A stretch of 64,000 nt of DNA from positions 104,669,767 through 104,733,766 of the forward strand of contig CM067322.1 of NCBI GenBank assembly GCA_034231615.1. Direction: 5' to 3'. Positions 8,653 to 52,994 of this stretch are shown one piece after another. How positions within the stretch are numbered: position 1 is the first letter of the stretch; each line of letters begins with the position of its first letter. The translations under genes and the position numbers were made by a program. The stretch is from Meghimatium bilineatum. Taxonomy: Eukaryota; Mollusca; Gastropoda; Stylommatophora; Philomycidae. Below the pieces are notes generated by a model that did not search any database, had not been told where the DNA came from, and was given only the letters and a program-made list of their open reading frames with translations.

Positions 8653-8983
8653 ATGAATCCGCAGTTTGAGATGGCAGCAGTTAGGGGGCATCCATTTTCT
8701 GTGAAAGATCTCCTGGATCTACCAGAGACAAAAGCAGCGGCAGTTGTCTCACCTGCTGGAAACTCCTGCATGTCCCCACCTCAAGGACTACCTCATCCAA
8801 GATCAATGCCCCTATCACATCCTGAAGGATCCCTCGATCTGCGCCAAAGCCGACTTCACGTGCCTGTCCCTGGAAGTCTATCTCATCGTGATACCGATAT
8901 ATCTGCTATCCAGCAATCCTACTACGATCCAGACAATCCATACACGCGATGGCTACACAATAATGAAAGCATTCACTACGGCC
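8653..8983 (+). CDS. Nkx2-2: Nkx2-2 homeobox protein, coding exon 1 (TN motif)
   Basis: This exon encodes the N-terminal 110 residues plus one base of codon 111 of an NK2-class homeodomain transcription factor, a nuclear regulator that in other animals patterns the ventral neural ectoderm. Residues 14-25 (PFSVKDLLDLPE) match the TN (tinman/Eh1-like) motif, which recruits Groucho/TLE co-repressors. YYDPDNPYTRWL near the end matches the NPYTRW block that precedes the homeodomain in Nkx2-2. The start is the first ATG after an in-frame TGA at 8638. A second ATG at codon 7 (8671) is possible. The exon ends in phase 1 at the donor GTAAGT (8984-8989), which joins in frame to 52132. The link to exon 2 is inferred from complementary family domains, phase and strand, without transcript evidence. 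Confidence 0.9.
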
Positions 8984-8989
8984 GTAAGT
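8984..8989 (+). other. 5' splice site of the 43 kb Nkx2-2 intron
   Basis: The sequence GCC|GTAAGTA is a near-consensus donor placed right after the NPYTRW block. It leaves phase 1, which the acceptor at 52131 resolves to a CAT (His) codon. Confidence 0.85.
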
Positions 8990-9107
8990 ACATGGATATG
9001 TCTGTCTGTCTCACATATTTATACTGACACCAATTACAACCCTATATATATTTCACAACAGGAAATTGTTCAGCCACATTTTACGTACAGACTACTCATC
9101 AAACAAA

Positions 9108-9779
9108 GTATACTGTACACCATACACTCGCCACATCACATCACAGGGTACAGCATACACTCGCCACATCACAGGGTACAGCATACACTAATCTTATCAA
9201 ATACAGGGTACAGCATACACTCGCCACATCACAGGGTACAGCATACACTCGCCACATCACAGGGTACAGCATACACTCGCCACATCACATCACAGGGTAC
9301 AGCATACACTCATCTTATCAAATACAGGGTACAGCATACACTCGCCACATCACATCACAGGGTACAGCATACACTCGCCACATCACATCACAGGGTACAG
9401 CATACACTCGCCACATCACATCACAGGGTACAGCATACACTCGCCACATCACATCACAGGGTACAGCATACACTCATCTTATCAAATACAGGGTACAGCA
9501 TACACTCGTCACATCACACACAGTGTACAAATATACACTCGTCACATGACATACAGTGTACAAACATACACCCGTCACTTCACATCACAGTGTACAAACA
9601 TACACTCGTCACATCACACACAGTGTACAAATATACACTCGTCACATGACATACAGTGTACAAACATACACTCGTCACATGACACACAGTGTACAAACAT
9701 ACACTCGTCACATGACACACAGTGTACAAACATACACTCGTCACATCACACACAGTGTACAAACATACACTCGCCAATG
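9108..9779. repeat. Minisatellite, 33-bp unit, two subfamilies
   Basis: Left units (to about 9515) carry CACAGGGTACAGCATACACT, with some longer variants containing CTTATCAAATACAGGG. Right units carry CACAGTGTACAAACATACAC. The two forms are clearly related, which suggests an array that switched its amplifying variant. It begins about 120 bp inside the intron. Confidence 0.92.
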
Positions 9780-10062
9780 ATATCAATGTCTACTCTTACA
9801 TTACTTTGTTAAATTACTTTGACCTGATCATATTTGAATATCAATTCAGACACTGAAATATTTGTAGTACTCATAACATATTCACGTCATTGATGTAATT
9901 GTAGTAGGCATATCGTTGTTGTGTAAGACACTACATTTCAACTTCTGGAGGTTGTAATAATGTTACAATTTAATAACAAGATTGGATTTGATTGTGTTTA
10001 TTGTTCCCAATTTGCAATCACCACATTTAAATAAAGGCGGCCGACTTGACGCTCAACACTTT

Positions 10063-10118
10063 ATCCTCAGATATGTCGGATTATCCTCAGATATGTCGGA
10101 TTATCCTCAGATATGTCG
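10063..10118. repeat. Short tandem repeat, 19-bp unit, 3 copies
   Basis: ATCCTCAGATATGTCGG is repeated three times. The 280 bp before it (9780-10062) hold nothing I recognise. Confidence 0.85.
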
Positions 10119-10189
10119 GGCCAATGAAATATATCGGAATAATCCGGTATTTATCAATACGGCTAAATTGCTTGAAAAAGGGAAAACTT

Positions 10190-10530
10190 TACTATTACCT
10201 ACTTCACATTTACAAATTTAACTATTACTTACATCACATTTACAAATTTTACTATTACTTACTTCACATTTACAAATTTTACTATTACTTACTTCACATT
10301 TACATATTTTACTATTACTTACTTGACATTTACAAATTTTAATATTGCTTAATTCAAATTTACATATTTTACTATTACTTCACATTTACATATTTTACTA
10401 TTACTTCACATTTGCATATTTTACTATTACTTCACATTTACATATTTTACTATTACTTACTTTACATTTGCAAACTTTACTATTACTCTCTTCTCATTTA
10501 CTAACGTTATTATTACTTACTTGACATTTA
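10190..10530. repeat. Minisatellite, ~30-bp A/T-rich unit, about 11 copies
   Basis: TTTTACTATTACTTACTTCA followed by CATTTACAAA recurs, with shorter units lacking one TTAC block. Confidence 0.87.
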
Positions 10531-10639
10531 CACACACTGGTAACTAGTATTCTAAAATATATATGTGTGCACATTATATCTTAGAGTGTGTCATTATCTT
10601 TTATTTTAGAGTGTGACATTTAATATACGAGAGTGGGAG

Positions 10640-11098: not shown

Positions 11099-11329
11099 CT
11101 TAGAGTGTGTCATTCATATATTATTTATCCTATAGAAACGTGTTTCATTATTTTATACATTACAGTGTGTTAAAATGTACATTGTATAGAGTGTCATCAT
11201 ATTAGTTCTTAGAGTGTCAACATTTTGGATCTTAGAGTGTCTTCACGTTAGATATTATAGTCTGACATATCTTCAATTTGCGTAATTCGATTCGGATCTA
11301 CCCAGTTAGATCTTGAATTCTGTTATGCT

Positions 11330-14300
11330 AAATCTTAATCTGCTGTCAAATTAGATCTGAATCTTTCATCAAGTTAGATCTGAGCCTGTCCTCAAGTTAG
11401 ATCTGAGTCTTTCATCAAATTAATTGCAGATGTCTGTAACACAGTTAGAAATGAGTCATAATATTAGACTGAGTCTTTCATCAAGTTAGATCTGAGTCTT
11501 TCATCAAGTTAGATCTGAATCATTAAGTTAGATCTGAGTCTTTAATCAACTTAGATCTGAGTCTTTCATCAAGTTAGATATGTCTTTCATCAAGTTAGAT
11601 CTGAGTCTTTCATCAAGTTATTTCTATCTTTCATCAAGTTAGATCTGTCTTTCATCACGTTAAATCTGTTATTCATCAAGTTAGATCTGAGTCTTTCATC
11701 AAGTTAGTTCTGTCTTTCATCACGTTAGTTCTGTCTTTCATCACGTTAAATCTGTTATTCATCAAGTTAGATCTGTCTTTCGTCAAGTTAGATCTGAGTC
11801 TTTCATCAAGTTAGATCTGAGTCTTTCATCAAGTTAGATCTGAGTCTTTCATCAAGTTAGATCTGAATCATCAAGTTAGATCTGAGTCTTTCATCAAGTT
11901 AGATCTGAATCATTAAGTTAGATCTGAGTCTTTAATCAACTTAGATCTGAGTCTTTCATCAAGTTAGATCTGAATCATTAAGTTAGATCTGAGTCTTTAA
12001 TCAACTTAGATCTGAGTCTTTCATCAAGTTATTTCTATCTTTCATCAAGTTAGATCTGTCTTTCATCACGTTAAATCTGTTATTCATCAAGTTAGATCTG
12101 AGTCTTTCATCAAGTTAGTTCTGTCTTTCATCACGTTAGTTCTGTCTTTCATCACGTTAAATCTGTTATTCATCAAGTTAGATCTGTCTTTCGTCAAGTT
12201 AGATCTGAGTCTTTCATCAAGTTAGATCTGAGTCTTTCATCAAGTTAGATCTGAATCATCAAGTTAGATCTGAGTCTTTCATCAAGTTAGATCTGAATCA
12301 TTAAGTTAGATCTGAGTCTTTAATCAACTTAGATCTGAGTCTTTCATCAAGTTATTTCTATCTTTCATCAAGTTAAATCTGAGTCTTTCATCAAGTTAGA
12401 TCTGAGTCTTTCATCAAGTTAGATATGTCTTTCATCAAGTTAGATCTGAGTCTTTCATCAAGTTATTTCTATCTTTCATCAATTTAAATCTGAGTCTTTC
12501 ATCAAGTTAGATCCGTCTTTCATCAAGTTAGATCTGAGTCTTTCATCAAGATAGATCTGAGTCTTTCATCAAGTTAGATCTGAGTCTTTCATCAAGTTAG
12601 ATCTGAGTCTTTCATCAAGTTAGTTCTGTCTTTCATCAAGTTATATGTTTTTCATCAAGTTAGATCTTTCTTTCGTCAAGTTAGATCTGAGTCTTTCATC
12701 AAGTTAGTTCTGTCTTTCATCACGTTAGTTCTGTCTTTCATCACGTTATATCTGTTTTTCATCAAGTTTGATCTGTCTTTCGTCAAGTTAGATCTGAGTC
12801 TTTCATCAAGTTAAATCTGAGTCTTTCATCAAGTTAGATCTGAGTCTTTCATCAAGTTAGATCTGTCGTTCATCAAGTTAGACCCGAGTCATCAAGTTAG
12901 ATCTGAGTGTTTCATCAAGTTAGACCCGAGTCATCAAGTTAGATCTGAGTGTTTCATCAAGTTAGATCTGTCTTTCATCAAGTTAGATCTAAGTAATCAA
13001 GTTAGATCTGAGTTTTTCATCAAGTTAGATCTGAGTCATCAAGTTAGATCTGAGTCATCAAGTTAGATCTGAGTCATTAAGTTAGATCTGAGTTTTTCAT
13101 CAAGTTAGATCTGAGTATTTCATCAAGTTAGATCTGAGTCATCAAGTTAGATCTGAGTTTTTCATCAAGTTAGATCTGAGTCATCAAGTTAGATCTGAGT
13201 GTTTTATCAAGTTAGACCCGAGTCATCAAGTTAGATCTGAGTGTTTCATCAAGTTAGATCTGTCTTTCATCAAGTTAGATCTAAGTAATCAAGTTAGATC
13301 TGAGTTTTTCATCAATTTAGATCTGAGTCATCAAGTTAGATCTGAGTCATCAAGTTAGATCTGAGTCATTAAGTTAGATCTGAGTTTTTCATCAAGTTAG
13401 ATCTGAGTATTTCATCAAGTTAGATCTGAGTCATCAAGTTAGATCTGAGTTTTTCATCAAGTTAGATCTGAGTCATCAAGTTAGATCTGAGTCATCAAGT
13501 TAGATCTGAGTTTTTCATCAAGTTAGATCTGAGTATTTCATCAAGTTAGATCTGAGTCATCAAGTTAGATCTGAGTTTTTCATCAAGTTAGATCTGAGTA
13601 TTTCATCAATTTAAATCTGAGTCTTTCATCAAGTTAGATCTGAGTCTTTCATCAAGTTAGTTCTGAGTCTTTCATCAAGTTAGATCTGAGCCTTTCATCA
13701 AGTTAGATCTGAGTCTTTCATCAAGTTAGATCTGAGTCATCAAGTTAGATCTGAGTCTTTCATCAAGTTAGATCTGAGTCTCATCAAGTTAGATCTGTCT
13801 TTCATCAAGTTAGATCTGAGTTTTTCATCAAGTTAGATCTGAGTCATCAAGTTAGATCTGAGTTTTTCATCAAGTTAGATCTGAGTCATTAAGTTAGATC
13901 TGAGTCATCAAGTTAGATCTGAGTTTTTCATCAAATTAGATCTGAGTCTTTCATCAAGTTAGATCTGAGCCTTTCATCAAGTTAGATCTGAGTCTTTCAT
14001 CAAGTTAGATCTGAGTCATCAAGTTAGATCTGAGTCATCAAGTTAGATCTGAGTCATCAAGTTAGATCTGAGTCATCAAGTTAGATCTGAGTCATCAAGT
14101 TAGATCTGAGTCATCAAGTTAGATATGAGCCTTTCATCAAGTTAGATCTGAGTCATCAAGTTAGATCTGAGTTTTTCATCAAATTAGATCTGTCTTTCAT
14201 CATGTTAGATCTGAGCCTTTCATCAAGTTAGATCTGTCGTTCATCAAGTTAGACCTGAGTCATCAATTTAGATATGTCGTTCATCAAGTTAGACCTGAGT

Positions 14301-15425
14301 CATCAAGTTAGATCTTTCGTTCATCAAGTTAGACCTGAGTAATCAAGTTAGATCTGAGTCATCAAGTTAGATCTGAGTTTTTCATCAAGTTAGATCTGAG
14401 TCATCAAGTTAGATCTGAGTCATCAAGTTAGATCTGAGTTTTTCATCAAGTTAGATCTGAGTATTTCATCAAGTTAGATCTGAGTCATCAAGTTAGATCT
14501 GAGTTTTTCATCAAGTTAGATCTGAGTATTTTATCAAGTTAAATCTGAGTCTTTCATCAAGTTAGATCTGAGTCTTTCATCAAGTTAGATCTGAGTCTTT
14601 CATCAAGTTAGATCTGAGCCTTTCATCAAGTTAGATCTGAGTCTTTCATCAAGTTAGATCTGAGTCATCAAGTTAGATCTGAGTTTTTCATCAAGTTAGA
14701 TCTGAGTATTTTATCAAGTTAAATCTGAGTCTTTCATCAAGTTAGATCTGAGTCTTTCATCAAGTTAGATCTGAGTCTTTCATCAAGTTAGATCTGAGCC
14801 TTTCATCAAGTTAGATCTGAGTCTTTCATCAAGTTAGATCTGAGTCATCAAGTTAGATCTGAATCTTTCATCAAGTTAGATCTGAGTCATCAAGTTAGAT
14901 CTGAGTTTTTCATCAAGTTAGATCTGAGCCTTTCATCAAGTTAGATCTGAGTCTTTCATCAAGTTAGATCTGAGTCTTTCATCAAGTTAGATCTGAGTCA
15001 TCAAGTTAGATCTGAGTCATCAAGTTAGATCTGAGTCATCAAGTTAGATCTGAGTCATCAAGTTAGATCTGAGTCATCAAGTTAGATCTGAGTCATCAAG
15101 TTAGATCTGAGCCTTTCATCAAGTTAGATCTGAGTCATCAAGTTAGATCTGAGTTTTTCATCAAATTAGATCTGTCTTTCATCATGTTAGATCTGAGCCT
15201 TTCATCAAGTTAGATCTGTCGTTCATCAAGTTAGACCTGAGTCATCAAGTTAGACCTGAGTCATCAAGTTAGATCTGAGTCTTTCATCAAGTTAGATCTG
15301 AGTCTTTCATCAAGTTAGATCTGAGTCTTTCATCAAGTTAGATCTGAGTCATCAAGTTAGATCTGAGTCTTTCATCAATTTAGATCTGAGTCATCAAGTT
15401 AGATCTGAGTCTTTCGTGAAATTAG
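11330..15425. repeat. 4.1 kb minisatellite of mixed 23- and 19-bp units
   Basis: The long unit contains AGATCTGAGTCTTTCATC and the short unit AGATCTGAGTCATCAAG, which lacks four bases. Both share CAAGTTAGATCTGAGT. Long, short and GTTTTT or GTCGTT variant units alternate. Blocks of several hundred bases recur, for example around 11.46-12.10 versus 11.82-12.35 kb and 14.45-14.65 versus 14.65-14.85 kb, so there is higher-order structure. Short units create TGAGTCA, a perfect AP-1 consensus. Confidence 0.95.
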
Positions 15426-15539
15426 ATCGTCGTGTCTGTCATCAATTTACGTGTTCGAAATTGAAAGATAAGGAATTAGTTCCTTCTGCAGAGTTAGTTT
15501 ATGTTGTCATTGTCCTTTGACCATGTCATTTCACTAAAT

Positions 15540-25325: not shown

Positions 25326-25377
25326 ATTCTACTTACGATTTGTGCTTTATTATGTTGAGTAGTGTTCATGGTGTCCA

Positions 25378-28140
25378 CCATGTTTGCATAGGAATAGAAA
25401 TAACAAGAGACAACATTCCTTTAAATATAAGGCGCAACGAAAAGTCGATCTTGAGCAAGTTGCAACAACTGGCATGACAAAGAAATACAGTGAGACCAAA
25501 CATACGACAACCCCCCATGGTGGACTGAAGAGGTAGAGTCTGTATGGGTAAGGAAGAAGCAAAGTGTCAGGAAGTGGGAACATAAGAGACGAAAGACACA
25601 AGTCACCATGGAAAGCAAAAACGAGTCAGGGATTACTATGAAGAAGACCACTGAAGCCTTTAAACAAATCGTGAAGGAAGACAAGAAAGAACGCTAGGAT
25701 AATTTCGAACAAGATGTCGCAGCCGACAGTGCCCTATACAAATTTTGGAAATTACACAAGGCTATGAATCGCTAAACGGACACAAAAATTAAACTTGTGC
25801 TTGAAGGACAAGTCGGGGTTTATACTAACCACAGATGAACAGAAGGGTAGCGCTTTCTTCAGCAGATACCTCCAACAATCAGATCAGAAAACAATATTGA
25901 TGAACATGAGACTATAGTGGTAACAACAAACGATGTCGCTGGTGAGGAACTGGTCTCGTTGTAGGATGTAACAAAGATCATAAAGACAACATCATATTGT
26001 ACAACAAAAAATACCTTACCCAACCCAAACGGAATACCTTACGGTCTCTTGAAATATTTGACAGACGTCCGGTTTAAAACAATTGTTGGTGATTTCAACA
26101 CAAGTCTGAAAACAGGACGCATACCAGAAGAGTGGCTACACTGTTACCTTCTCCCTCTGACTAAGCCAGGTAAAGACACCTCCGATATCAAGAATTATCG
26201 TATCCTCACCTTACAAAATGTCTACGGCAAGGTGCTGGAGAGGATAATCGCTAGAAGACTGGCCTTCGATTTGGAAAATGGAGGCTTACTTCCTGACACT
26301 CTAGGTGCATACAGACCGGGGAGAGACAAGACCACAAATGCAGCGATCTTCGCCTATGCCTACGAGGGCTTTCAGGCAAAGGAGGAAACAATGGTCGCCA
26401 CGGTCGACCTAGAAGATGCTTACAACAGAGTCAGCTTTGGCCAGCTAATACAACTGCTAAGTAAACTCAGCACGTTCTTGTGGATAATTCGATGGATAAC
26501 AATGGTGTTAATGTCTAGACATGTGGCTCTGAGATTGGGATCCGGGACATCAGAGATCAGAACTATAACACCTGGATTACCACTGGGATTTCAGTATCAC
26601 ATGTACTCTTTAACGTCTACACATACAAAATAGTGCAGCTTCAGGAGGCTAGATCCAGCAGGATATTAACATATGTGGACAACCTCTTGCTGTACAAGCA
26701 CGGCAGAAACAGAAGAAACATAATTGATGACGTCCAGCGTAATCTAGAACATTTGTCGATCTGGTGCACTAACTACAAGACAGTCATCAATCTTACAAAG
26801 GCAAACATCGTCAGGTTCTCGCTGAACAACAAGATGATCACAGACACATTACCTGCATGGAAATCAACAGTGACAGGGAGCAGACTATGAAATACATAGC
26901 AATCACTTGTGATAGAAGACAATCGTTCGCGAGACATGAAGACAATAACATTCAGAATGCTTGGAAGGGTGTCAGTGTAATCAAAATAACGGCATCTGTA
27001 GAGATGTAGCTGCGAACCCTTTTTTTCAGATGATGCAGGCAGTGGTATTATCTGTGTTGAACTATGGTTTAGTTTTACTAATACTGTCGCAAATACAGGC
27101 GGATAGATTGGAGAGAGTTCAAAACGAGGCCATGAGAGCTGGACTAGGATGCACAAGAGATACACCAATCGTGGCCATGAAGTTTCTCCTAGATCTACCG
27201 AGTATCAAGTCAAGACATAAAATAGCCCAGGTTAAAGAATACTTCAAGGTCGCCAATAATGATCATCACGTCTTACGCCAATCTCTAGACAGCACAAAAG
27301 GAAAACAAATCAAGAGAGGAAGGTCCTGGATGGCAGAAGACACCCTACTCAGAGTTTGTGAGCTGGAGGAAGTGGGAAGAGGATGTGATTGGGAGACATT
27401 TGGTAAAGAGAGAATGTTATTGACAACAGTTGTGATACAGGTGGGAAGAGAATGTCGCGACTGCACTGCCAACAGAACAGAGGAAATCATTCAAGAACTC
27501 ATACTGCAGCACTCGAAGCCACAAGATACAATAATTTAATTGGACGACCCAGCAACACAAGAAACAAACAGGTGTGGTTGTTGTTTCGTGGCATACCAAA
27601 ATGGCAAGAAATTAGCTGAGAAGTCATTTACATTTCCCACTTTAAGATCGAGTATGAGAATGGAAATATAATCTGTAACAACAGCTGTCACGTGGCTGGG
27701 TGACGCAACTACCACCAAACTCATTGATTCTATTGGACTCTCAAAGTATGCTGCGCAAGATAGAAAAGTATACGATCTGTATTGAATGGGTCACTGAAAG
27801 AGCCGATGTGTTGACTGGTAAAGCTTTGGTGAATGGCACTCAGATAAGAAGAGACAGGATTGAATTGATTAGAGGAGTCATGAGAACACCATATGAGAAG
27901 ACGAGGAGGAGGTCGAACTAGACAATGTACATATTCAGAGAATGGTAGAAAAATGATTGGCTAGAGGCGATGGGAGAAAATGCTCCCTCTACGATAAGAT
28001 CAGAAGAGCGCTTAATCAGCAACTGACTTGGACACTGAACTTTATACACTGTTAGATGGCTGACGGAACAGTGAGCAGAGCATATATGGAAATGCCCTAA
28101 GTACTGTGACGCTTGTTCCTAATCAAGAATCAAGACAATT
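25378..28140 (+). pseudogene. 5'-truncated non-LTR retrotransposon (RT and RNase H, I-superfamily-like)
   Basis: The order is the end of the endonuclease-RT linker (25400-25700, VRPNIRQPP and WWTEEVESVWVRKKQ in broken frames), then RT (26049-26633: LTKPGKDTSDIKNYRILTLQ, LGAYRPGRDKTTNAAIFAYA, motif A VDLEDAYNRVSF, TITPGLPLG). Next comes 26633-26890 with YVDN at 26672-26683 where active elements have YADD, so the second catalytic Asp is lost. A thumb (27050-27535) with DRLERVQNEAMRAGLGCTRD follows, then RNase H in shifted frames (LDDPA for YTDGS; DSQSMLRKIEK at 27737) and a C-terminal EHIWKCPKYC segment near 28085. The shared 3' end CTAATCAAGAATCAAG lies near 28120. From 27063 the element is duplicated twice downstream. 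Confidence 0.92.
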
Positions 28141-28350
28141 AGTAAACTAACACATTGCGCCTTCATTGATCTAATAATTTCATATGTATCTGCACTTCGC
28201 GGTTCCTGGATGTCGAAATGGAATGTTTCTCCTCAAATTCACTTGTCAATAGCTATTTATTTTCTGTTATACATATACCGTTGAATGACTTTCGGCGTGT
28301 TGGTGTAGAAGAATTCTCTGGAAATGGCCTTCTTTGTGTGTTCTAGGGGT

Positions 28351-29612
28351 ATTGTTGTACCATCAAATGATTGACATTCCCGTTTGTTACTGTGGTGTGC
28401 ATTGTTGTACCATCAGATGATTGACATTCCCGTTTGTTACTGTCGTGTGCATTGTTGTACCATCAGATGATTGTCATTAACGTTTGTTACTGTGGTGCAC
28501 ATTGTTGTACCATCAGATGATTGATATTCCCGTTTGTTACTGTGGTGCACATTGTTGTACCATCAGATGATTGATATTCCCGTTTGTTACTGTGGTGTGC
28601 ATTGTTGTACCATCAAATGATTGACATTCCCGTTTGTTACTGTGGTGCACATTGTTGTACCATCAAATGATTGATATTCCCGTTTGTTACTGTGGTGCAC
28701 ATTGTTGTACCATCAAATGATTGACATTCCCGTTTGTTACAGTGGTGCACATTGTTGTACCATCAAATGATTGACATTCCCGTTTGTTACTGTGGTGCGC
28801 AGTGTTGTACCATCAAATGATTGATATTCCCGTTTGTTACTGTGGTGCACATTGTTGTACCATCAGATGATTGATATTCCCGTTTGTTACTGTGGTGTGC
28901 ATTGTTGTACCATCAGATGATTGACATTCCCGTTTGTTACTGTCGTGTGCATTGTTGTACCATCAGATGATTGTCATTCCCGTTTGTTACTGTGGTGCAC
29001 ATTGTTGTACCATCAGATGATTGATATTCCCGTTTGTTACTGTGGTGCACATTGTTGTACCATCAGATGATTGTCATTCCCGTTTCTTACTGTGGTGAAC
29101 ATTGTTGTACCATCAGATGGGTTGTCATTCCCGTTTGTTACTGTGGTGCACATTGTTGTACCATCAGATGATTGATATTCCCGTTTGTTACTGTGGTGCA
29201 CATTGTTGTACGATCAGATGATTGATATTCCCGTTTGTTACTGTGGTGTGCATTGTTGTACCATCAGATGATTGACATTCCCGTTTGTTACTGTGGTGTG
29301 CATTGTTGTACCATCAGATGATTGACATTCCCGTTTGTTACTGTCGTGTGCATTGTTGTACCATCAGATGATTGTCATTCCCGTTTGTTACTGTGGTGCA
29401 CATTGTTGTACCATCAGATGATTGATATTCCCGTTTGTTACTGTGGTGCACATTGTTGTACCATCAGATGATTGTCATTCCCGTTTGTTACTGTGGTGCA
29501 CATTGTTGTACCATCAGATGGGTTGTCATTCCCGTTTGTTACTGTGGTGCACATTGTTGTACCATCAGATGATTGATATTCCCGTTTGTTACTGTGGTGC
29601 ACATTGTTGTAC
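28351..29612. repeat. 50-bp minisatellite, array 1 of the compound repeat (about 25 units)
   Basis: Units read ATTGTTGTACCATCAGATGA, then a GACATTCCCGTTTG core, then TGTGGTGCAC or TGTCGTGTGC. Variant order partly repeats in arrays 2 and 3. 28140-28350 is non-LINE flank carried in every compound unit. Confidence 0.96.
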
Positions 29613-30900: not shown

Positions 30901-32312
30901 ATTGTTGTACCATCAAATGATTGACATTCCCGTTTGTTACTGTGGTGTGCATTGTTGTACCATCAGATGATTGACATTCCCGTTTGTTACTGTCGTGTGC
31001 ATTGTTGTAACATCAGATGATTGTCATTAACGTTTGTTACTGTGGTGCACATTGTTGTACCATCAGATGATTGATATTCCCGTTTGTTACTGTGGTGCAC
31101 ATTGTTGTACGATCAGATGATTGATATTCCCGTTTGTTACTGTGGTGTGCATTGTTGTACCATCAAATGATTGACATTCCCGTTTGTTACTGTGGTGCAC
31201 ATTGTTGTACCATCAAATGATTGATATTCCCGTTTGTTACTGTGGTGCACATTGTTGTACCATCAGATGATTGATATTCCCGTTTGTTACTGTGGTGTGC
31301 ATTGTTGTACCATCAAATGATTGACATTCCCGTTTGTTACTGTGGTGCACATTGTTGTACCATCAAATGATTGATATTCCCGTTTGTTACTGTGGTGCAC
31401 ATTTTTGTACCATCAAATGATTGACATTCCCGTTTGTTACAGTGGTGCACATTGTTGTACCATCAAATGATTGACATTCCTGTTTGTTACTGTGGTGCGC
31501 AGTGTTGTACCATCAAATGATTGATATTCCCGTTTGTTACTGTGGTGCACATTGTTGTACCATCAGATGATTGATATTCCCGTTTGTTACTGTGGTGTGC
31601 ATTGTTGTACCATCAGATGATTGACATTCCCGTTTGTTACTGTCGTGTGCATTGTTGTACCATCAGATGATTGTCATTCCCGTTTGTTACTGTGGTGCAC
31701 ATTGTTGTACCATCAGATGATTGATATTCCCGTTTGTTACTGTGGTGCACATTGTTGTACCATCAGATGATTGTCATTCCCGTTTGTTACTGTGGTGCAC
31801 ATTGTTGTACCATCAGATGGGTTGTCATTCCCGTTTGTTACTGTGGTGCACATTGTTGTACCATCAGATGATTGATATTCCCGTTTGTTACTGTGGTGCA
31901 CATTGTTGTACGATCAGATGATTGATATTCCCGTTTGTTACTGTGGTGTGCATTGTTGTACCATCAGATGATTGACATTCCCGTTTGTTACTGTGGTGTG
32001 CATTGTTGTACCATCAGATGATTGACATTCCCGTTTGTTACTGTCGTGTGCATTGTTGTACCATCAGATGATTGTCATTCCCGTTTGTTACTGTGGTGCA
32101 CATTGTTGTACCATCAGATGATTGATATTCCCGTTTGTTACTGTGGTGCACATTGTTGTACCATCAGATGATTGTCATTCCCGTTTGTTACTGTGGTGCA
32201 CATTGTTGTACCATCAGATGGGTTGTCATTCCCGTTTGTTACTGTGGTGCACATTGTTGTACCATCAGATGATTGATATTCCCGTTTGTTACTGTGGTGC
32301 ACATTGTTGTAC
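30901..32312. repeat. 50-bp minisatellite, array 2 of the compound repeat (about 28 units)
   Basis: It has the same unit as 28351-29612 and is three units longer, which accounts for the 150-bp difference between the 2550- and 2700-bp periods. Confidence 0.96.
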
Positions 32313-33600
32313 TATGGTTTAGTTTTACTAATACTGTCGCAAATACAGGCGGATAGATTGGAGAGAGTTCAAAACGAGGCCATGAGAGCTGTACTAGGAT
32401 GCACAAGAGATACACCAATCGTGGCCATGAAGTTTCTCCTAGATCTACCGAGTATCAAGTCAAGACATAAAATAGCCCAGGTTAAAGAATACTTCAAGGT
32501 CGCCAATAATGATCATCACGTCTTACGCCAATCTCTAGACAGCACAAAAGGAAAACAAATCAAGAGAGGAAGGTCCTGGATGGCAGAAGACACCCTACTC
32601 AGAGTTTGTGAGCTGGAGGAAGTGGGAAGAGGATGTGATTGGGAGACATTTGGTAAAGAGAGAATGTTATTGACAACAGTTGTGATACAGGTGGGAAGAG
32701 AATGTCGCGACTGCACTGCCAACAGAACAGAGGAAATCATTCAAGAACTCATACTGCAGCACTCGAAGCCACAAGATACAATAATTTAATTGGACGACCC
32801 AGCAACACAAGAAACAAACAGGTGTGGTTGTTGTTTCGTGGCATACCAAAATGGCAAGAAATTAGCTGAGAAGTCATTTACATTTCCCACTTTAAGATCG
32901 AGTATGAGAATGGAAATATAATCTGTAACAACAGCTGTCACGTGGCTGGGTGACGCAACTACCACCAAACTCATTGATTCTATTGGACTCTCAAAGTATG
33001 CTGCGCAAGATAGAAAAGTATACGATCTGTATTGAATGGGTCACTGAAAGAGCCGATGTGTTGACTGGTAAAGCTTTGGTGAATGGCACTCAGATAAGAA
33101 GAGACAGGATTGAATTGATTAGAGGAGTCATGAGAACACCATATCAGAAGACGAGGAGGAGGTCGAACTAGACAATGTACATATTCAGAGAATGGTAGAA
33201 AAATGATTGGCTAGAGGCGATGGGAGAAAATGCTCCCTCTACGATAAGATCAGAAGAGCGCTTAATCAGCAACTGACTTGGACACTGAACTTTATACACT
33301 GTTAGATGGCTGACGGAACAGTGAGCAGAGCATATATGGAAATGCCCTAAGTACTGTGACGCTTGTTCCTAATCAAGAATCAAGACAATTAGTAAACTAA
33401 CACATTGCGCCTTCATTGATCTAATAATTTCATATGTATCTGCACTTCGCGGTTCCTGGATGTCGAAATGGAATGTTTCTCCTCAAATTCACTTGTCAAT
33501 AGCTATTTATTTTCTGTTATACATCTACCGTTGAATGACTTTCGGCGTGTTGGTGTAGAAGAATTCTCTGGAAATGGCCTTCTTTGTGTGTTCTAGAGGT
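32313..33600 (+). pseudogene. LINE 3'-end copy 3 in the compound tandem repeat
   Basis: Again 1288 bp with the same left junction. It shares private bases with copy 2 (for example ACATCTACCG where copy 1 has ACATATACCG) and has its own changes (ATATCAGAAG, TTCTAGAGG), so copies 2 and 3 are closest to each other. Confidence 0.94.
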
Positions 33601-34706
33601 ATTGTTGTACCATCAAATGATTGACATTCCCGTTTGTTACTGTGGTGTGCATTGTTGTACCATCAGATGATTGACATTCCCGTTTGTTACTGTCGTGTGC
33701 ATTGTTGTACCATCAGATGATTGTCATTAACGTTTGTTACTGTTGTGCACATTGTTGTACCATCAGATGATTGATATTCCCGTTTGTTACTGTGGTGCAC
33801 ATTGTTGTACCATCAGATGATTGATATTCCCGTTTGTTACTGTGGTGTGCATTGTTGTACCATCAAATGATTGACATTCCCGTTTGTTACTGTGGTGCAC
33901 ATTGTTGTACCATCAAATGATTGATATTCCCGTTTGTTACTGTGGTGCACATTGTTGTACCATCAAATGATTGACATTCCCGTTTGTTACAGTGGTGCAC
34001 ATTGTTGTACCATCAAATGATTGACATTCCCGTTTGTTACTGTGGTGCGCAGTGTTGTACCATCAGATGATTGACATTCCCGTTTGTTACTGTGGTGTGC
34101 ATTGTTGTACCATCAGATGATTGACATTCCCGTTTGTTACTGTGGTGCACATTGTTGTACCATCAGATGATTGACATTCCCGTTTGTTACTGTGGTGCAT
34201 ATTGTTGTACCATCAGATGATTGTCATTCCTGTTTGTTACTGTGGTGCACATTGTTGTACCATCAGATGATTGACATTCCCGTTTGTTACTGTGGTGCAC
34301 ATTGTTGTACCATCAGATGATTGACATTCCCGTTTGTTACTGTCGTGTGCATTGTTGTACCATCAGATGATTGACATTCCCGTTTGTTACTGTGGTGTGC
34401 ATTGTTGTACCAACAGATTATTGACATTCCCGTTTGTTACTGTGGTGTGCATTGTTGTACCATCAGATGATTGACATTCCCGTTTGTTACTGTGGTGTGC
34501 ATTGTTGTACCATCAGATGATTGACATTCCCGTTTGTTACTGTGGTGCACATTGTTGTACCATCAGATGATTGACATTCCCGTTTGTTACTGTGGTGCAC
34601 ATTGTTGTACCATCAGATGATTGACATTCCCGTTTGTTACTGTGGTGCACATTGTTGTACCATCAGATGATTGACATTCCCGTTTGTTACTGTGGTGTGC
34701 ATTGTT
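33601..34706. repeat. 50-bp minisatellite, array 3 of the compound repeat (about 22 units)
   Basis: The right half is dominated by one variant (CAGATGATTGACATTCCCG), unlike arrays 1 and 2, so local homogenisation continued after the compound duplication. Confidence 0.96.
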
Positions 34707-34721
34707 GGAAGTTTCATGCAC

Positions 34722-41170: not shown

Positions 41171-41261
41171 GGCACAAACTTTTTACCTGTTAGAATGACT
41201 GTTGTATATGCTAAGTTTACAGGCACTATGAGATGAATACATTCAAAGAGAAGAGGGAAAC

Positions 41262-44200
41262 TTGGAATATATCATGAGAAGAGAACACGTGGAACATATC
41301 ATGAGAAGAGAAAACGTGGAACATATCATGAGAAGAGAACACGTGGAACATATCATGAGAAGAGAACACGTGGAACATATCATGAGAAGAGAACACGTGG
41401 AACATATCACGAGAAGAGAACACGTGGAACATATCATGAGAAGAGGACACGTGAAACATATCATGAGAAGAGAACACGTGGAACATATCATGAGAAGAGG
41501 ACACGTAGAACATATCATGAGAAGAGAACACGTGGAACATATGAAAAGAGAACACGTGAAACATATCATGAGACGAGAAAACGTGGAACATATCATGAGA
41601 AGAGAACACGTGGAACATATCATGAGAAGAGAACACGTGGAAAATATCATGAGAAGAGAACACGTGGAACATATCATGAGAAGAGAACACGTGGAAAATA
41701 TCATGAGAAGAGAACACGTGGAACTTATCATGAGAAGAGAACACCTGGAACATATCATGAGAAGAGAACACGTGGAACATATCATGAGAATAGAACACCT
41801 GGAACATATCATGAGAAGAGGACACCTGGAACATATGAAGAGAGGACACCTGGAACATAACATGAGAAGAGAACACGTGGAACATATCATAAGAAGAGGA
41901 AAAGAACATGTGGAACATATCATGAGAAGAGGACACGTGGAACATATCATGAGAAGAGGACACCTGGAACATATCATGAGAAGAGGACACCTGGAATATA
42001 TAATGAGAAGAGAACACGTGGAACATATCATGAGAAGAGAACACGTGGAACATATCATGAGAAGAGGACACCTGGAACATATTATGAGAAGAGGACACCT
42101 GGATCATATCATGAGAAGAGGACACCTGGAACATATCATGACAAGAGTACACGTAGAACATATCATGAGACGAGAAAACGTGGAACATATCATGAGAAGA
42201 GAACACGTGGAACATATCATGAGAAGAGAACACGTGGAACATAACATGAGAAAAGAACACCTGGAACATATCATGAGAAGAGGACACGTGAAACATATCA
42301 TGAGAAGAGGACACCTGGAACATATCATGAGAAGATGACACCTGGAACATATCATGAGAAGAGGACTCGTGGAACATATCATGAAAAGAGGAATCCTGGA
42401 ACATATCATGAAAAGAGGACACCTGGAACATATCATGAGAAAAGGACACCTGGAACATATCATGAGAAGAGGACACCTGGAACATATCATGAGAAGAGAA
42501 CATATAGAACATATCATGAGACGAGAAAACGTGGAACATATCATGAGAAGAGAACACGTGGAACATATCATGAGAAGAGGACACGTGGAACATATCACGA
42601 GAAGAGAACACGTGGAACATATCATGAGAAGAGGACACCTGGAACATATCATGAGAAGAGAACACGTGGAACATATCATGAGAAGAGAACACCTGGAACA
42701 TATCACGAGAACAGAACACGTGGAACATATCATGAGAAGAGAACACGTGGAACATATCATGAGAAGAGGACACGTGAAACATATCATGAGAAGAGGACAC
42801 CTGGAACATATCATGAGAATAGGACACCTGGAACATATCATGAGAAGAGGAAGAGAACATGTGGAACATATCATGAGAAGAGGACACGTGGAACATATCA
42901 TGAGAAGAGGACACCTGGAACATATCATGAGAAGAGGACACCTGGAACATATCATGAGAAGAGAACACGTGGAACATATCATGAGAAGAGAACACGTGGA
43001 ACATATCATGAGAAGAGGACACCTGGAACATATCATGAGAAGAGGACACCTGGAACATATCATGAGAAGAGGACACCTGGAACATATCATGAGAAGAGAA
43101 CTCGTAGAACATATCATGAGACGAGAAAACGTGGAACATTTCATGAGAAGAGAACACGTGGAACATATCATGAGAAGAGAACACGTGGAACATATCATAA
43201 GAGAACACCTGGAACATATCATGAGAAGAGGAAGAGAACACGTGGAACATATCATGAGAAGAGGACACGTGGAACATATCATGAGAAGAGAACACCTGGA
43301 ACATATCATGAGAAGAGGACACCTGGAACATATCATGAGAAGAGGACACGTGGAACATATCATGAGAAGAGAACATGTAGAACATATCATGTGACGAGAA
43401 AACGTGGAACATATCATGAGAAGAGAACTCGTGGAACATATCCCGAGAAGAGGACACCTGGAATATATCATGAGAATAGAACACGTGGGACATATCATGA
43501 GAAGAGAACACCTGGAACATATCATGAGAAGAGGACACGTGAAACATATCATGAGAAGAGGACACGTGAAACATATCATGAGAAGAGGACACGTGGAACA
43601 TATCATGAGAAGAGAACACGTGGAACATATCATGAGAAGAGGACACGTGGAACATATCATGAGAAGAGAACACGTGGAACATATCACGAGAAGAGAACAC
43701 GTGGAACATATTACGAGAAGTGCACACGTGAAACATATCATGAGAAGAGAACACGTGGAACATATCATGAGCAGAGAACACCTGGAACATATCATGAGAA
43801 GAGGAAGAGAACACGTGGAACATATCATGAGAAGAGGACACGTGGAACATATCATGAGAAGAGGACACCTGGAACATATCATGAGAAGAGGACACCTGGA
43901 ACATATCATGAGAAGAGGACACCTGGAACATATCATGAGAAGAGGACACCTGGAACATATCATGAGAAGAGAACACGTAGAACATATCATGAGACGAGAA
44001 AACGTGGAACATATCATGAGAAGAGAACACGTGGAACATATCACGAGAAGAGAACACGTGGAACATATCATGAGAAGAGGACACCTGGAACATATCATGA
44101 GAAGAGAACACGTGGAACATATCATGAGAAGAGAACACCTGGAACATATCACGAGAAAAGAACACGTGGAACATATCATGAGAAGAGAACACGTGGAACA

Positions 44201-44984
44201 TATCAAGAGAAGAGAACACGTGGAACATATCATGAGAAGAGGACACGTGAAACATATCATGAGAAGAGGACACGTGGAACATATCATGAGAAGAGAACAC
44301 GTGGAACATATCACGAGAAGAGAACACGTGGAACATATCATGAGAAGAGAACACGTGGAACATATCATGAGAAGAGAACACCTGGAACATATCATGAGAA
44401 GAGAACACGTGGAACATATCATGAGAATAGTACACCTGGAACATATGATGTGAGGACACCTGGAACATAATGTGAGAAGAGAACACGTGGAACATATCAT
44501 GAGAAGAGGAAGAGAACACGTGGAACATATCATGAGAAGAGGACACGTGGAACATATCATGAGAAGAGGACACCTGGAACATATCATGAGAAGAGAACAC
44601 GTGGAACATATCATGAGAAGAGAACACCTGGAACATATCATGAGAAGAGAACATGTGGAACATATCATGAGAAGAGGACACCTGGAACATATGATGAGAG
44701 GACACCTGGAACATAACGTGAGAAGAGAACACGTGGAACATATCATGAGAAGAGGAAGAGAACACGTGGAACATATCATGAGAAGAGGACACGTGGAACA
44801 TATCATGAGAAGAGGACACCTGGAACATATCATGAGAAGAGGACACCTGGAACATATCATGAGAAGAGGACACCTGGAACATATCATGAGAAGAGGACAC
44901 CTGGAACATATCATGAGAAGAGGACACCTGGAACATATCATGAGAAGTGGACACCTGGAACATATCATGAGAAGAGAACACTGA
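41262..44984. repeat. 3.7 kb minisatellite of 27-bp units carrying E-box variants
   Basis: The core is CATATCATGAGAAGAG followed by AACACGTGGAA or GACACCTGGAA, roughly 135 units. Most units differ only at A/G before ACAC and at CACGTG versus CACCTG. Six-base-longer units (GAAGAGGAAGAGAA) and a GACGAGAAAACG variant recur at irregular intervals, showing higher-order duplications. The unit length is a multiple of nine codons, so several frames stay open for hundreds of codons on both strands without being genes. Confidence 0.97.
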
Positions 44985-46455: not shown

Positions 46456-46477
46456 GGACCACATGGACCTTAATACA

Positions 46478-46575: not shown

Positions 46576-46605
46576 CACACTGTTCAGTAATAATTTTATC
46601 TATAT

Positions 46606-47262
46606 TGAGATGTTCGTTGAGATGCAGACACACAGGGCAAGAATCATTTATCTCCATGTTGAGATGTCCGTTGAGCTGCAGACACACAGGGCAGGAATCA
46701 TTTATCTCCATGTTGAGATGTCCGTTGAGCCGCAGACACACAGGGCAAGAATCATTTATCTCCATGTTGAGATGTCCGTTGAGCTGCTGACACACAGGGC
46801 AAGAATCATTTATCTCCATGTTGAGATGTCCGTTGAGCTGCAGACACACAGGGCAGGAATCATTTATCTTCATGTTGAGATGTCCGTTGAGCTACAGACA
46901 CACAGGGCAGGAATCATTTATCTCCATGTTGAGATGTCCGTTGAGCTGCAGACACACAGGGCAAGAATCATTTATCTCCATGTTGAGATGTCCGTTGAGC
47001 TGCAGACACACAGGGCAAGAATCATTTATCTCCATGTTGAGATGTCCGTTGAGATGCAGACACACAGGGCAAGAATCATTTATCTCCATGTTGAGATGTC
47101 CATTGATATGCAGACACACAGGGCAAGAATCATTTATCTCCATGTTGAGATGTCCGTTGAGATGCAGACACACAGGGCAAGAATCATTTATCTCCATGTT
47201 GAGATGTCCGTTGAGATGCAGACACACAGGACAGGAATCAGTTTTCTTCATGTTGAGATGCA
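46606..47262. repeat. Minisatellite, 54-bp unit, about 12 copies
   Basis: GTTGAGATGTCCGTTGAGCT and CAGACACACAGGGCAAGAAT recur every 54 bp. At 18 codons per unit it gives open frames on both strands. Confidence 0.95.
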
Positions 47263-47434
47263 CGCTACAACTTGCTGTAGTGCTCCAATATTGCGTTTTC
47301 TCTGTTAATTTTTGTTAGGTTCTTATGGGTGACATTATCCACGTGAAGGTCTGTTTCTGTAGTCTGGTTCCATTCGCTATTCTCCTCTCAGGTTTCAACC
47401 AAATTTTACCTGTCTACAGTTTTGTATTCTCACC

Positions 47435-48130
47435 TGCGACCACAACTCACCTCTCTACAGTGTCTCTGTGACCACACCTCACCTGTCTACAGTGTGTCTG
47501 TGACCACACCTCACCTGTCTGCAGTGTGTCTGTCACCACACCTAACCTGTCTACAGTGAGTCTGTGACCACACCTCACCTGTCTACAGTGTGTCTGTGAC
47601 CACACCTCACCTGTCTACAGTGTGTATGTGACAACAACTCACCTGTGTACAGTGTGTCTGTGACCACACCTCACCTGTCTACAGTGTGTCTGTGACCACA
47701 CCTCACCTTTCTACATTGTGTCTGTGACCACAACTCACCTGTCTACAGTGTGTCTGTGACCACACCTCACCTGTCTACCGTGTGTCTGTGACTATACCTC
47801 ACCTGTCTACAGTGTGTCTGTGACCATACCTCACCTATCTACAGTGTGTCTGTGACCACACCTCACCTGTCTACATTGTGTCTGTGACCACACCTCACCT
47901 GTCTACAGTGTGTCTGTGACCACACCTCACCTGTATACAGTGTGTCTGTGTCCACACCTCACCTGTCTACAGTGTGTCTGTGACCATACCTCACCTGTCT
48001 ACTGTGTGTCTGTGACCATACCTCACCTGTCTACATTGTGTCTGTGACCACACCTCACCTGTCTACAGTGTGTCTGTGACCACACCTCACCTGTCTACAG
48101 TGTGTCTGTGTCCACACCTCACCTGTCTAC
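47435..48130. repeat. Minisatellite, 32-bp unit, about 21 copies
   Basis: CACCTCACCTGTCTACAGTG followed by TGTCTGTGACCA recurs. Most units contain CACCTG. Confidence 0.95.
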
Positions 48131-49645: not shown

Positions 49646-49654
49646 GTGATGAGG

Positions 49655-50575
49655 GTTGACAGTTATAATTTCAAAAGTTAATGATAGGCCTCAGACAAGG
49701 ATGTCTATTGTCTTCAGATGTTGTCTCCCTGTATACAAAGGATATTATACGAAACATAGAAAACATTTCAGGAATAGCAGTTGGAGGTTAAAATCTGAAT
49801 AATCTAAGATATGCTGACGATACTGTTCTGATTGAAGGGAGCGAACACGAAATTTAAATCTTTTAGACACAGTAGTACAAGAAAGTGAAAAAGAGGGCTC
49901 ATCTAAACAAGAAGAAAACGGAAGTAATTGTTGTTTCAAAGAAATGCGCACCGACAAAATGCGGTATTAATATCAATGGCGAAAACTTAAATCAAACTGA
50001 TAATGTCAAGTATCTTGGCACCGATTTAACATCAGAAGACAGGTGCTCCAATGAGATCAAGAACTGGATAGCAAAGAAAAAATCACCATTTCAAAAAATG
50101 ATAAGCAATCTATGCAATGGAGTAATATCAATGCATACATGAATTCGAGTGCTATTTTGATGCAATCCTTCTTTATAGAAACGAAGCATGGACAGTAAAC
50201 AAAAGTGCTCAAGATAAGATGGAGGCAACTGAGATGAGATGTGGGTTTAAAGAAGAATGATGAAAATTCCATGGACAGCCAAGAAAACTAATGTAAAAGC
50301 TCTCAAAGATGCTGGAGTAAAACGACAAATTAGAGCAAAAATTAGAAACAGACAATCAAAAATTTTAGGGCATGTGGTAAGGAAAGTAAAAAACTTAGGC
50401 ATTTAGTAACTACCGGCACTATCAATAGGAGAAGAAACAGAAAAGACAAAGAGAGAAGTTTCTGGATGGGTTGTCACTGTGGCACAAGAAGATTTCCCCA
50501 ACTGAACTTATTAACAACACAGCAGACGAAAGTTGTGGAGAAGCATGATCGCCTACATTACTCGGAATGGCACTT
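49655..50575 (+). pseudogene. Non-LTR retrotransposon 3' part (RTE-like, clade uncertain)
   Basis: The order is RT motif B (LRQGCLLSSDVVSLYTKDII), then LNNLRYADDTVLIEG with an intact YADD near 49810, then a post-RT segment (49885-50142: LNKKKTEVIVVSKK, NVKYLGTDLTSEDRC), then RRMMKIPWTAKKTN and KILGHVVRKV (50250-50400), a typical C-terminal end. Frames are interrupted by stops and shifts. 5' truncation falls at motif B, close to where the fragment at 19495-20375 ends, but I would not assume they were once one copy. Confidence 0.87.
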
Positions 50576-50579
50576 GATT

Positions 50580-50682
50580 GATTGATATCATTCCCTATTT
50601 CAAGATTTTATATTATTCCCTGTTTCATGACATTATATCATTCCCTGTTTCAAGATCTTATATCATTCCCTGTTGACATCGT
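50580..50682. repeat. Right part of the LINE-split ~26-bp array
   Basis: ATATCATTCCCTGTTTCAAG with TTATATT variants, repeated about four times. Confidence 0.82.
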
Positions 50683-50689
50683 CACAGAC

Positions 50690-50940
50690 ATCACAAAGCC
50701 CAGATTGCAATTCTCATCCATTTGACGATTCAGCAAAAATCTGAGATTCAGCAGATATCAGAGGATTCAACAGATATCAGAGGGTTCAGCAAATATCAGA
50801 GTGTTCAGCAAACATCTGAGATTTCCGCAAATATCTGATATTTCACAAAACATTTGAGATTTCAGCAGATATCTGAAGATTCAGCAAATATTTCAAGATT
50901 CTGCAAACATCTGAAGATTGAGTAAACATCAATCCAAACG
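50690..50940. repeat. Degenerate tandem repeat, ~24-bp unit
   Basis: GATTCAGCAGATATCAGAGG and TTCAGCAAATATCTGA forms recur about nine times with many changes. Confidence 0.75.
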
Positions 50941-50984
50941 ATTATTTCTGTCGTTCCCAAGAAGGAGTATCACCATTTTTAAAA

Positions 50985-51865
50985 TACTGCAATGATATTT
51001 ATATTTGCTACATTTTAAAACTATGTTTGCTATATCGTAATGATATTTATATATGCTATATTTCAATGATATTTATATTTTCTATATTATATTTATATTT
51101 GCTATATTATATTTCAATGACATCTATATTTGCTATATTTTAATGACATTCAAGCTTAATATATTTTAAGGATTATATTTAGTATATATGTAACAAATAT
51201 AAATATCATTCAAATATAGCAAACAGAAATAAAATTAAAATATGGAAACATAAATACCGTTAAAATATATTAAACATACATATTATTAAAATATATCAAA
51301 TATAAATATCTTATACTATATCAATCAAAAATAACATTATATTATAATAAATATAAATATTATTAATATATAACAAACATAAATATCATATAAAATATCA
51401 TATATAAAAATCATTAAAATAGATCAAGTAAAAATATCATCAAAAAATAACAAATATAAATATCGTTGAAATCTGACACATATAAATATCATTAAATTAT
51501 ATTAAGTATACCTTATATAAAGGATATTTATATTTGCTAGATTTAAACGATTTTATGTTTGGTTTTCTTTAGAGATGCTTATATTTGATATATTTTAATG
51601 ATATTTATTCTTGTTATGTTTAAATTGTTTTAATGTTTGCTATATATTAATGCCATTCATATTTGTTACATTTTAATGATATTTATGTTTGCTATATTTT
51701 AGTGGTTTTTTAATATTTAAAATATTTAATATATTTTAACGATATTTAATTTTGTTATATTTGAATCATACTTATATTTAATATATTGTAATGATATTTA
51801 TATTTTGTTATATGTTAACAATATTTATATTTGTTATATTGTAGTGATATTTATACTTTTTATGT
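50985..51865. repeat. A/T-rich arrays in alternating orientation (inverted)
   Basis: TTTAATGATATTTATATTTG-type units run on the plus strand at about 50985-51180. Their reverse complement (AATATAAATATCATTAAAAT) runs at about 51190-51510, and the plus form returns at about 51530-51865. Adjacent inverted blocks could pair over hundreds of bases in the pre-mRNA. Confidence 0.82.
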
Positions 51866-52109
51866 TTCAATAATATTTGCGTGTCATATTTTGTGGTTGT
51901 CTTTAATATTTATATTTATTGTACGGTTTCAAAGTGTAGGTAGCTTATCCAAATTATTCCTAGTGAAGATGATTCGAAGGAGGAAGAACAAATTCTGCGT
52001 ACAACTAATCGAACCATGTGTAAGAATCGTATTGTGGCAATAATAATGATAATAATAACAACAAATTTTGAAATATTAACAATACTAATAGTTATATTTG
52101 CTATAGTAA

Positions 52110-52131
52110 TAATTTGTTATTCTTGTTTCAG
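52110..52131 (+). other. 3' splice site of the 43 kb Nkx2-2 intron
   Basis: A T-rich tract (TTTGTTATTCTTGTTTCAG) ends at AG 52130-52131. Joining to the donor at 8984 keeps the frame open through ISF into the segment preceding the homeodomain. Confidence 0.82.
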
Positions 52132-52994
52132 ATATAAGTTTCATGACTCCGTCCACACAAGCTTACAGCAGCGTCAACACTAATGGCACCACCAGTCCTG
52201 CTAGCCACGACCATCACAGCGAAGTATCTCAACAAGACAGTCGAAGTGGTGATAACGTCACGCCAATCAAAGACTGTTACGATGATGACGACAATGACGA
52301 CGACGATGATGAGGATTGCAAAAGTGAAACTGGAAACTCTGACAGCAAATCAACAAGTAAAGACGCCGTAGATTCACAAACTGACTCCAACAATGGAGAC
52401 CCACCAAAAAAAAGAAAACGGCGAGTACTTTTTTCTAAAGCGCAGACCTACGAACTGGAACGTCGGTTTCGGCAACAGCGCTATCTGTCAGCCCCAGAAC
52501 GTGAACACCTGGCTAGCATTATTCGGCTTACTCCAGTACAGGTGAAAATATGGTTCCAGAACCATCGATATAAGTTAAAGAGATCACGTCAAGAAAAGGG
52601 ACTTGCAGATCTGAACCCTCTGCCATCTCCAAGACGTGTGGCTGTTCCTGTTCTAGTCAAGGACGGAATACCCTGTCAACGACCGTCCCTGAACTCTGCG
52701 CTGAAAACTTCCGATCACCAACATCATCTTCCTATGCAGACAGGAATGTCAAACGCAATGGGGATGGCGATGAACGCTGGTAGTCTCAACCATATGAGCT
52801 GTATGAACGGTTACGGTCACATGTCGTCTGGTGCCCAGTCCATTTCCTCGACGCTGTCTAACTCTATGTCTATGAACATGAGTTGTTCCTATAACAACAG
52901 CATCAGTCACCTCAACGTCCCCAGCGTCAACACCATGAACGTTCTGCCTGGATACAGTCATCCGTTGATGCAGCCTCAGACACGGTGGTATTGA
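52132..52994 (+). CDS. Nkx2-2: Nkx2-2 homeobox protein, coding exon 2 (homeodomain, NK2-SD, C-terminus)
   Basis: This exon encodes the DNA-binding part of the factor. In the joined protein: a Ser/Asp-rich linker with an acidic run (about residues 161-173, [14 protein letters not shown]), then the homeodomain at 204-263 (52410-52589). It starts [20 protein letters not shown] and has [12 protein letters not shown] with Trp48, Phe49, Asn51 and the NK2-class Tyr54, which prefers CAAGTG-type sites. The NK2-specific domain [20 protein letters not shown] is at 273-292. The tail is rich in Met, Ser and Asn and ends QTRWY. HRYKLKR replaces the HRYKMKR I recall from vertebrate Nkx2-2, a conservative change. 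The frame is intact and stops at 52992-52994. Domain order and length fit Nkx2-2 better than Nkx2-1 or Nkx2-5. Confidence 0.95.

Follow-up and report, generated by a model that had tools for sequence, protein, structure and literature searches.

Nkx2-2A of Meghimatium bilineatum: a homeobox gene with a minisatellite-filled 43-kb intron close to a telomere

The stretch analysed here ('the window') comprises 64,000 nucleotides of the stylommatophoran gastropod Meghimatium bilineatum (GenBank assembly GCA_034231615.1, contig CM067322.1, called C25 below; C25:104669767-104733766 of a 1.612-Gb assembly in 32 contigs). It contains an Nkx2-2 gene, which we call Nkx2-2A, whose coding intron is composed largely of tandem repeats as detected with Tandem Repeats Finder (TRF). 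The gene and the array at its start codon are as follows (window positions):

8553-8652, + strand: 21-bp array of 4.8 copies, the last base adjoining the start codon of Nkx2-2A
8653-8983, + strand: Nkx2-2A coding exon 1, 331 bp, with start codon, TN motif (FSVKDLLDLP) and NPYTRW, ending in phase 1
8984-52131, + strand: Nkx2-2A coding intron (intron A), 43,148 bp, 62% tandem repeats in 58 non-redundant arrays
52132-52994, + strand: Nkx2-2A coding exon 2, with acidic linker, homeodomain, NK2-SD-like segment, C-terminus TRWY and stop

Joining the two exons gives a single frame of 397 amino acids with no internal stop, in which TN motif, NPYTRW, homeodomain and NK2-SD follow one another in the family order (the motif names are those we take to apply). 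The donor after exon 1 is GTAAGT and TTGTTTCAG directly precedes exon 2, giving a GT-AG intron in phase 1. The homeodomain occupies residues 205-261 (Pfam, 66.8 bits; cut-off 22.9), and the top sequence match in PDB is Drosophila vnd/NK-2 (1nk2, E 1.2e-34), with Nkx2-1 and Nkx2-5 ranking lower. A first-pass annotation, made from the letters alone, had proposed both the Nkx2-2 identity and the two-exon model with a phase-1 junction, and each is confirmed by these results. The codons for DNPYTRW have one exact match in the genome, at this gene. The Nkx2-2 coding intron, a single one placed between NPYTRW and the homeodomain, is conserved beyond this genome, in human and fly. By its homeodomain, closest to vnd/NK-2, and its motif order, Nkx2-2A belongs to the Nkx2-2/vnd class of NK2 homeobox genes, from which it differs solely in intron length and content; its coding part is ordinary for the class and the gene itself is unremarkable. 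TRF coverage of the two exons is 0%, and the 5' untranslated region or promoter is itself a minisatellite (the array at 8553-8652). Scanning the window for RNA genes gave no Rfam hit at gathering scores and no tRNA with ARAGORN. Nor did we find coding exons inside intron A: its long open frames look like repeat artefacts or pieces of retrotransposons (10 proteins and 5 stretches scanned, 64 frames listed; small exons would escape). Judged from the sequence, normal splicing would excise the intron, and its sites agree in place and phase between the two copies of the gene (see below).

TRF covers 62.2% of intron A (about 26.8 of 43.1 kb, in arrays with periods of 7-100 bp), 40.0% of the 8.65 kb upstream and 29.3% of the 11 kb downstream. 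The description of the intron as 'mostly tandem arrays' in the first-pass annotation is thus accurate. The arrays qualify as minisatellites (tandem units of about 10-100 bp): their median period is 30 bp, 27 of the 58 have at least five copies, and their GC content (38%) is like that of the remaining intron, which includes retrotransposon fragments. The nearest arrays lie 131 bp from the donor and 253 bp from the acceptor. A single mononucleotide shuffle of the window reduced the TRF output from 135 rows to 1. Three arrays may serve as examples:

11346-15449, + strand: longest intron array, 23 bp x 191 (TRF, 84% matches)
41248-44981, + strand: 27 bp x 137 (TRF, 90% matches)
46605-47260, + strand: 54 bp x 12 (TRF)

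A 216-bp query taken from the last of these has its sole match in the 1.6-Gb assembly at this place (the search skips very common words). We considered whether splice signals have been selected against within the arrays, as GTRAGT occurs 4 times in sense and 20 times in antisense orientation and AGGTRAG 0 and 23 times, respectively. We do not claim such a bias because a single 32-bp array (47429-48118) and its margin account for 22 of the 23 AGGTRAG sites, so that the count reflects about one event.

A genome search identified a second Nkx2-2 gene, Nkx2-2B, on contig C16 (exon 1 starting at 50173317 and exon 2 at 50184613), with an open frame of 461 amino acids. Its loci were read as C16:50173300-50182299 (L048) and C16:50184200-50186400 (L042). 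Exon 1 aligns to that of copy A at 69% over residues 1-109. Its intron (intron B; 10,935 bp, a quarter of the 43,148 bp of intron A) splits the same codon in the same phase and has the same GTAAGT donor. The conserved intron position asserted at first reading is therefore found again within this genome. Reading covered 83% of intron B, namely some 8.6 kb next to the donor and 0.4 kb next to the acceptor; the 5' part is 36% tandem. The homeodomains of the two copies are identical in protein sequence. Over 387 aligned codons the proportion of non-synonymous differences (pN) is 0.182 and that of synonymous differences (pS) 0.748; in the homeodomain the values are 0.016 and 0.781, the two counted replacements stemming from multi-step codon paths. 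Such low pN relative to pS suggests that selection has retained at least one copy and, given the open frame, probably both; a pairwise pN/pS cannot tell which copy is constrained. The existence of a second Nkx2-2 with an open frame also weakens the earlier proposal that repeat load is tolerated in a dose-sensitive gene.

The exons of the two copies differ in their tandem repeats. In exon 1 of copy B a 27-bp x 2.3 repeat lies across the place of NPYTRW, which now reads NNRYTKWLHSNRYSKWLH, and in exon 2 180 bp of 21/42/63-bp repeats begin about 40 bp past the acceptor and encode a repeat of about 60 residues. Both are in frame and TRF finds no array in the exons of copy A; tandem amplification has thus reached coding sequence in copy B only. 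On the same contig, 4.6 Mb from Nkx2-2B, there is a homeodomain that we take to be NK2-1-like (L046, C16:54752822). Among the matches listed for C25, none besides Nkx2-2A is comparably strong, and the ancestral NK2-1/NK2-2 linkage may survive on C16 only.

Contig C25 measures 105,182,576 bp and consists of pure telomere repeat (TTAGGG arrays) over 4 kb at either end; the gene Nkx2-2A therefore lies 0.46-0.50 Mb from the chromosome end. Six neighbouring 10-kb blocks at or beyond the window edges (L013 overlapping the window by 3.8 kb and L012 by 0.2 kb) are 35-73% tandem, with a mean of 53%, compared with a mean of 12.6% and a median of 5% in 14 distant 10-kb blocks (one of which, L024, contains 2.5 kb of N). 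No difference is seen between four 10-kb blocks of intron A (0.47-0.84 tandem) and the six neighbours (Mann-Whitney p 0.48, small numbers). The repeat load therefore looks regional rather than intronic, a conclusion better supported than the chromosome-end effect considered below, and the view that the content of this particular intron had 'exploded' is not upheld. One observation goes the other way: the window's own flanks are together 34% tandem compared with 62% in intron A.

That difference, the fourfold length of intron A over intron B and the nature of the host gene, a conserved developmental regulator, would be expected if intron A had been specially enlarged or selected for its length (for example, to delay transcription or as an intronic regulatory array). 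We regard this as quite unlikely, given that the blocks at and beyond the window edges are equally repeat-rich and that a comparison of intron A with the 83% of intron B covered by our reading revealed no conserved non-repeat, non-coding block; such extended matches as exist on the same strand are relics of reverse transcriptase. One of these was examined as a candidate:

49675-50292, + strand: decayed fragment of a long interspersed nuclear element (LINE) reverse transcriptase, containing a stop, with YADD visible; it resembles a piece in intron B

This same-strand match of about 620 bp (to L048 7967-8593; local score 157, whereas 300 dinucleotide shuffles reached at most 59) was considered as a conserved intronic enhancer common to both copies and was rejected, as it is decayed LINE reverse transcriptase. 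In the L048 copy RVT_1 is matched at E 1.1e-6 and 29.0 bits, just below the cut-off of 29.6; the window copy shows YADD. Outside tandem stretches, everything above 30 bits in tblastx between the two introns was a piece of reverse transcriptase, apart from one inverted match at window 17.7-17.8 kb. This match (215 bp, 75%; L048 778-991 and window 17846-17638) is probably a dispersed element.

To describe how tandem content varies with distance to the nearest contig end, we used 21 systematic samples: the 14 distant blocks, a further six taken later, and a single sample standing for the window and its neighbourhood. The two quantities are negatively correlated (Spearman rho -0.53, p 0.014; three contigs), and samples at most 2.5 Mb from a contig end have a mean of 0.44 (n=6) compared with 0.12 (n=15; p 0.023), the cut having been picked after viewing the data. 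Telomere or telomere-like end stretches (L030, L037, L039, L040 and L041), one sample consisting entirely of N (L038) and L047, which lies inside the window, were excluded. For C2, one end of which reads N, and for C15, C16, C22 and C7, distance means distance to the contig end only.

Several points weigh against an effect of the chromosome end. The idea was formed after a first look at the data, and every one of the 21 samples lies on C25, C2 or C17. The correlation weakens to rho -0.47 (p 0.037) without the window neighbourhood and to -0.36 (p 0.033) across all 36 samples, gene-centred ones included. Some samples near an end are repeat-poor (L032 at 2 Mb, 0.015; L036 at 0.1 Mb, 0.18; L004, 0.12; L009, 0.12), some interior samples are repeat-rich (L016, 0.44; L029, 0.44; L003, 0.41; L045, 0.45), and the intron of the duplicate is 36% tandem despite the 5.9 Mb that separate it from its contig end. 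Because the exceptions go in both directions, we consider the end effect moderately supported, probable rather than proven. The interior islands (0.41-0.45) and the 0.36 of intron B would be accounted for if minisatellites occurred in patchy domains anywhere, or preferentially around genes and introns, the nearness of the telomere being a coincidence; the 13 gene-centred homeobox and POU loci, with a mean of 0.19 (coding parts included) compared with 0.126 in the 14 distant blocks, are of the same tendency. Against it stand the contrast between near-end and far samples and the equal richness of the blocks around the window and of intron A. This explanation is possible, although we think it the less likely one.

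Subtelomeric minisatellites of human chromosomes offer a close parallel. According to excerpts of PMC3486850, these have units of 10-100 bp, as here, and are enriched towards chromosome ends, as the arrays of this genome may be, and one example lies 0.4 Mb from the telomere; they are described there as a GC-rich class, whereas the arrays here have 38% GC. Our literature searches on minisatellites in Stylommatophora, or on minisatellites combined with introns, homeobox genes and subtelomeric regions, gave nothing on the subject by title.

With few exceptions among neighbours, the array units of the window are unrelated to one another. Only 4 of the 79 units tested (56 of the 79 being intronic) matched any of the fetched loci lying wholly outside the window (about 300 kb in all); matches in L012, L013 and L047 were discarded, as these overlap it. 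Three of the four recurring units are intronic and one of these is CT-rich. Most of the units tested are therefore of their own kind and look locally born. For one array the source can be traced further:

25328-28350, + strand: non-tandem island containing a decayed non-LTR (long terminal repeat) retrotransposon; RVT_1 lies in 25965-26630, and the 3' end of the element passes directly into the 50-bp array
27063-34707, + strand: triplication of a 1,288-bp LINE 3' part plus 50-bp array, the LINE parts being 99.7-99.8% identical
28351-29612, + strand: 50-bp array copy 1 (TRF)
30901-32312, + strand: 50-bp array copy 2
33601-34707, + strand: 50-bp array copy 3

The LINE 3' part has been triplicated in tandem together with its array, and recently: over 1,288 bases each pair of LINE parts has 3 or 4 differences. 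At the junctions array and LINE have a short similar stretch in common (TTGTACTATGG/TTGAACTATGG), which would be compatible with unequal exchange or with repair by microhomology. Long arrays, and three copies of some 2.5 kb with LINE parts 99.7% identical, are classic trouble spots, and an assembler could have expanded or misplaced them. We judge such an artefact very improbable: the copies differ in substitutions and in array length (1,262, 1,412 and 1,107 bp), the largest arrays are made of diverged units (84-90% matches), and the telomere is resolved at both ends of C25.

The 50-bp unit has 56 matches in the genome, of which 20 are in the window, 6 are multi-copy at two places (C11 and C23), and 30 are isolated, of about one unit each and spread over 16 contigs. 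Directly 5' of the array lies the 3' end of a dispersed LINE, with at least 37 other tails (40 of 174 candidates scored). Two of the 30 isolated units follow a tail of this kind in the same orientation, at distances of 119 bp (C16) and 237 bp (C14), and because of this it is very likely, indeed strongly suggested by the sequences, that the unit derives from the 3' region of this LINE. Two points tell against that origin: it depends on two adjacent pairs, and the window copy is without the roughly 120-240 bp that separate tail and unit elsewhere. Satellites from retrotransposon tandem repeats, described in excerpts of PMC7004042, are alike in that a dispersed retrotransposon piece has grown into a long array at particular places. 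In that system the elements are LTR ones carrying short arrays internally, and primary constrictions are concerned. Here the element is non-LTR, the array is in an intron near the end of a chromosome, and dispersed copies mostly comprise about one unit. Minisatellites near telomeres and arrays grown from retrotransposons are thus known kinds, as far as the excerpts of PMC3486850 and PMC7004042 go.

Downstream of the gene the window has three further features. A second, diverged copy of the LINE family occupies 54805-58397 (endonuclease domain at 55627-56280; identity to the copy in the intron 67-70% over the aligned parts). An open frame of 347 amino acids at 58965-60008, with a weak RVT_1 match (E 0.034), resembles what we take to be a reverse transcriptase of Penelope-like elements. 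Finally, a 24-bp array with 97% matches fills 62100-64000 (at least 1.9 kb) and continues past the window end.

Some other homeobox and POU genes are also paired. Eight homeodomain loci were read, and Hox1-like genes are present on both C17 (L001) and C25 (L002), within two split Hox sets each having a Hox1 (C25:7.08-8.52 Mb; C17:6.5 and 16.2-18.0 Mb). There are also two Pou4-like genes, on C22 and C15. The Hox labels (from homeodomain signatures, without a tree) and the Pou4 labels are our own presumptive ones. Two Hox1-like and two Pou4-like genes point to a duplicated genome. The layout resembles the duplicated homeobox genes of Stylommatophora as given in excerpts of PMC12328838: Hox1-like genes on two contigs, Hox1-2-3-like genes together on one, a Hox5-like gene apart, and Lox5/Antp-like genes on the other contig; the Nkx2-2 pair and the Pou4-like pair agree with that duplication. 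It is unlike that of Lissachatina, which according to the same excerpts has no second Hox1. The main text of PMC12328838 contains no occurrence of Nkx genes or telomeres.

Two side observations were made at these loci. Two equal-scoring partial homeodomain matches (C25:7622214-7622345 and 7659252-7659383), 37 kb apart and with one TGA each, may represent a Hox4-like exon duplicated locally. Locus L009 (C2:121988305-121991928), which gave the assembly's sole reported COX1 match, is a nuclear copy of mitochondrial ND4-ND2-COI with five TGA inside by the standard code; the ND4 and ND2 labels are presumptive, and the COI presumably reads like that of pulmonates.

Taken together, the observations are probably best explained by an ordinary duplicated Nkx2-2 gene that happens to lie near a telomere, in a region that generates minisatellites. 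Nkx2-2A and Nkx2-2B would both have been retained, probably after the duplication that the genomes of land snails and slugs underwent. In the region about 0.5 Mb from the telomere, short segments would have been repeatedly amplified into minisatellites, and intron A would have grown by lying there and being free to grow, with nothing particular to the gene involved. Most arrays would have arisen on the spot, with replication slippage or unequal exchange as the presumed mechanism; in one case a 50-bp piece of the LINE 3' region would have become an array in intron A, and the LINE 3' part with its array then underwent the recent tandem triplication.

The steps of array birth are visible at this locus, from LINE tail to 50-bp array to triplication, and the duplicate provides an internal control: one ancestral intron at two chromosomal addresses, with a fourfold difference in length. 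It is tempting, if speculative, to suppose that chromosome address decided the fates of the two copies. Copy A, near a telomere, has the fourfold longer, array-filled intron and has kept its motifs, and copy B, 5.9 Mb from a contig end, has the compact intron and in-frame minisatellites in its exons. If this is true, minisatellite birth, depending on chromosomal position, would in land snails be a major cause of giant introns and also of the divergence of duplicated proteins. Provided that the gradient extends across the whole genome, stylommatophoran duplicates could be used to test how the place of a gene on its chromosome affects the size of its introns and the repeats in its coding sequence.

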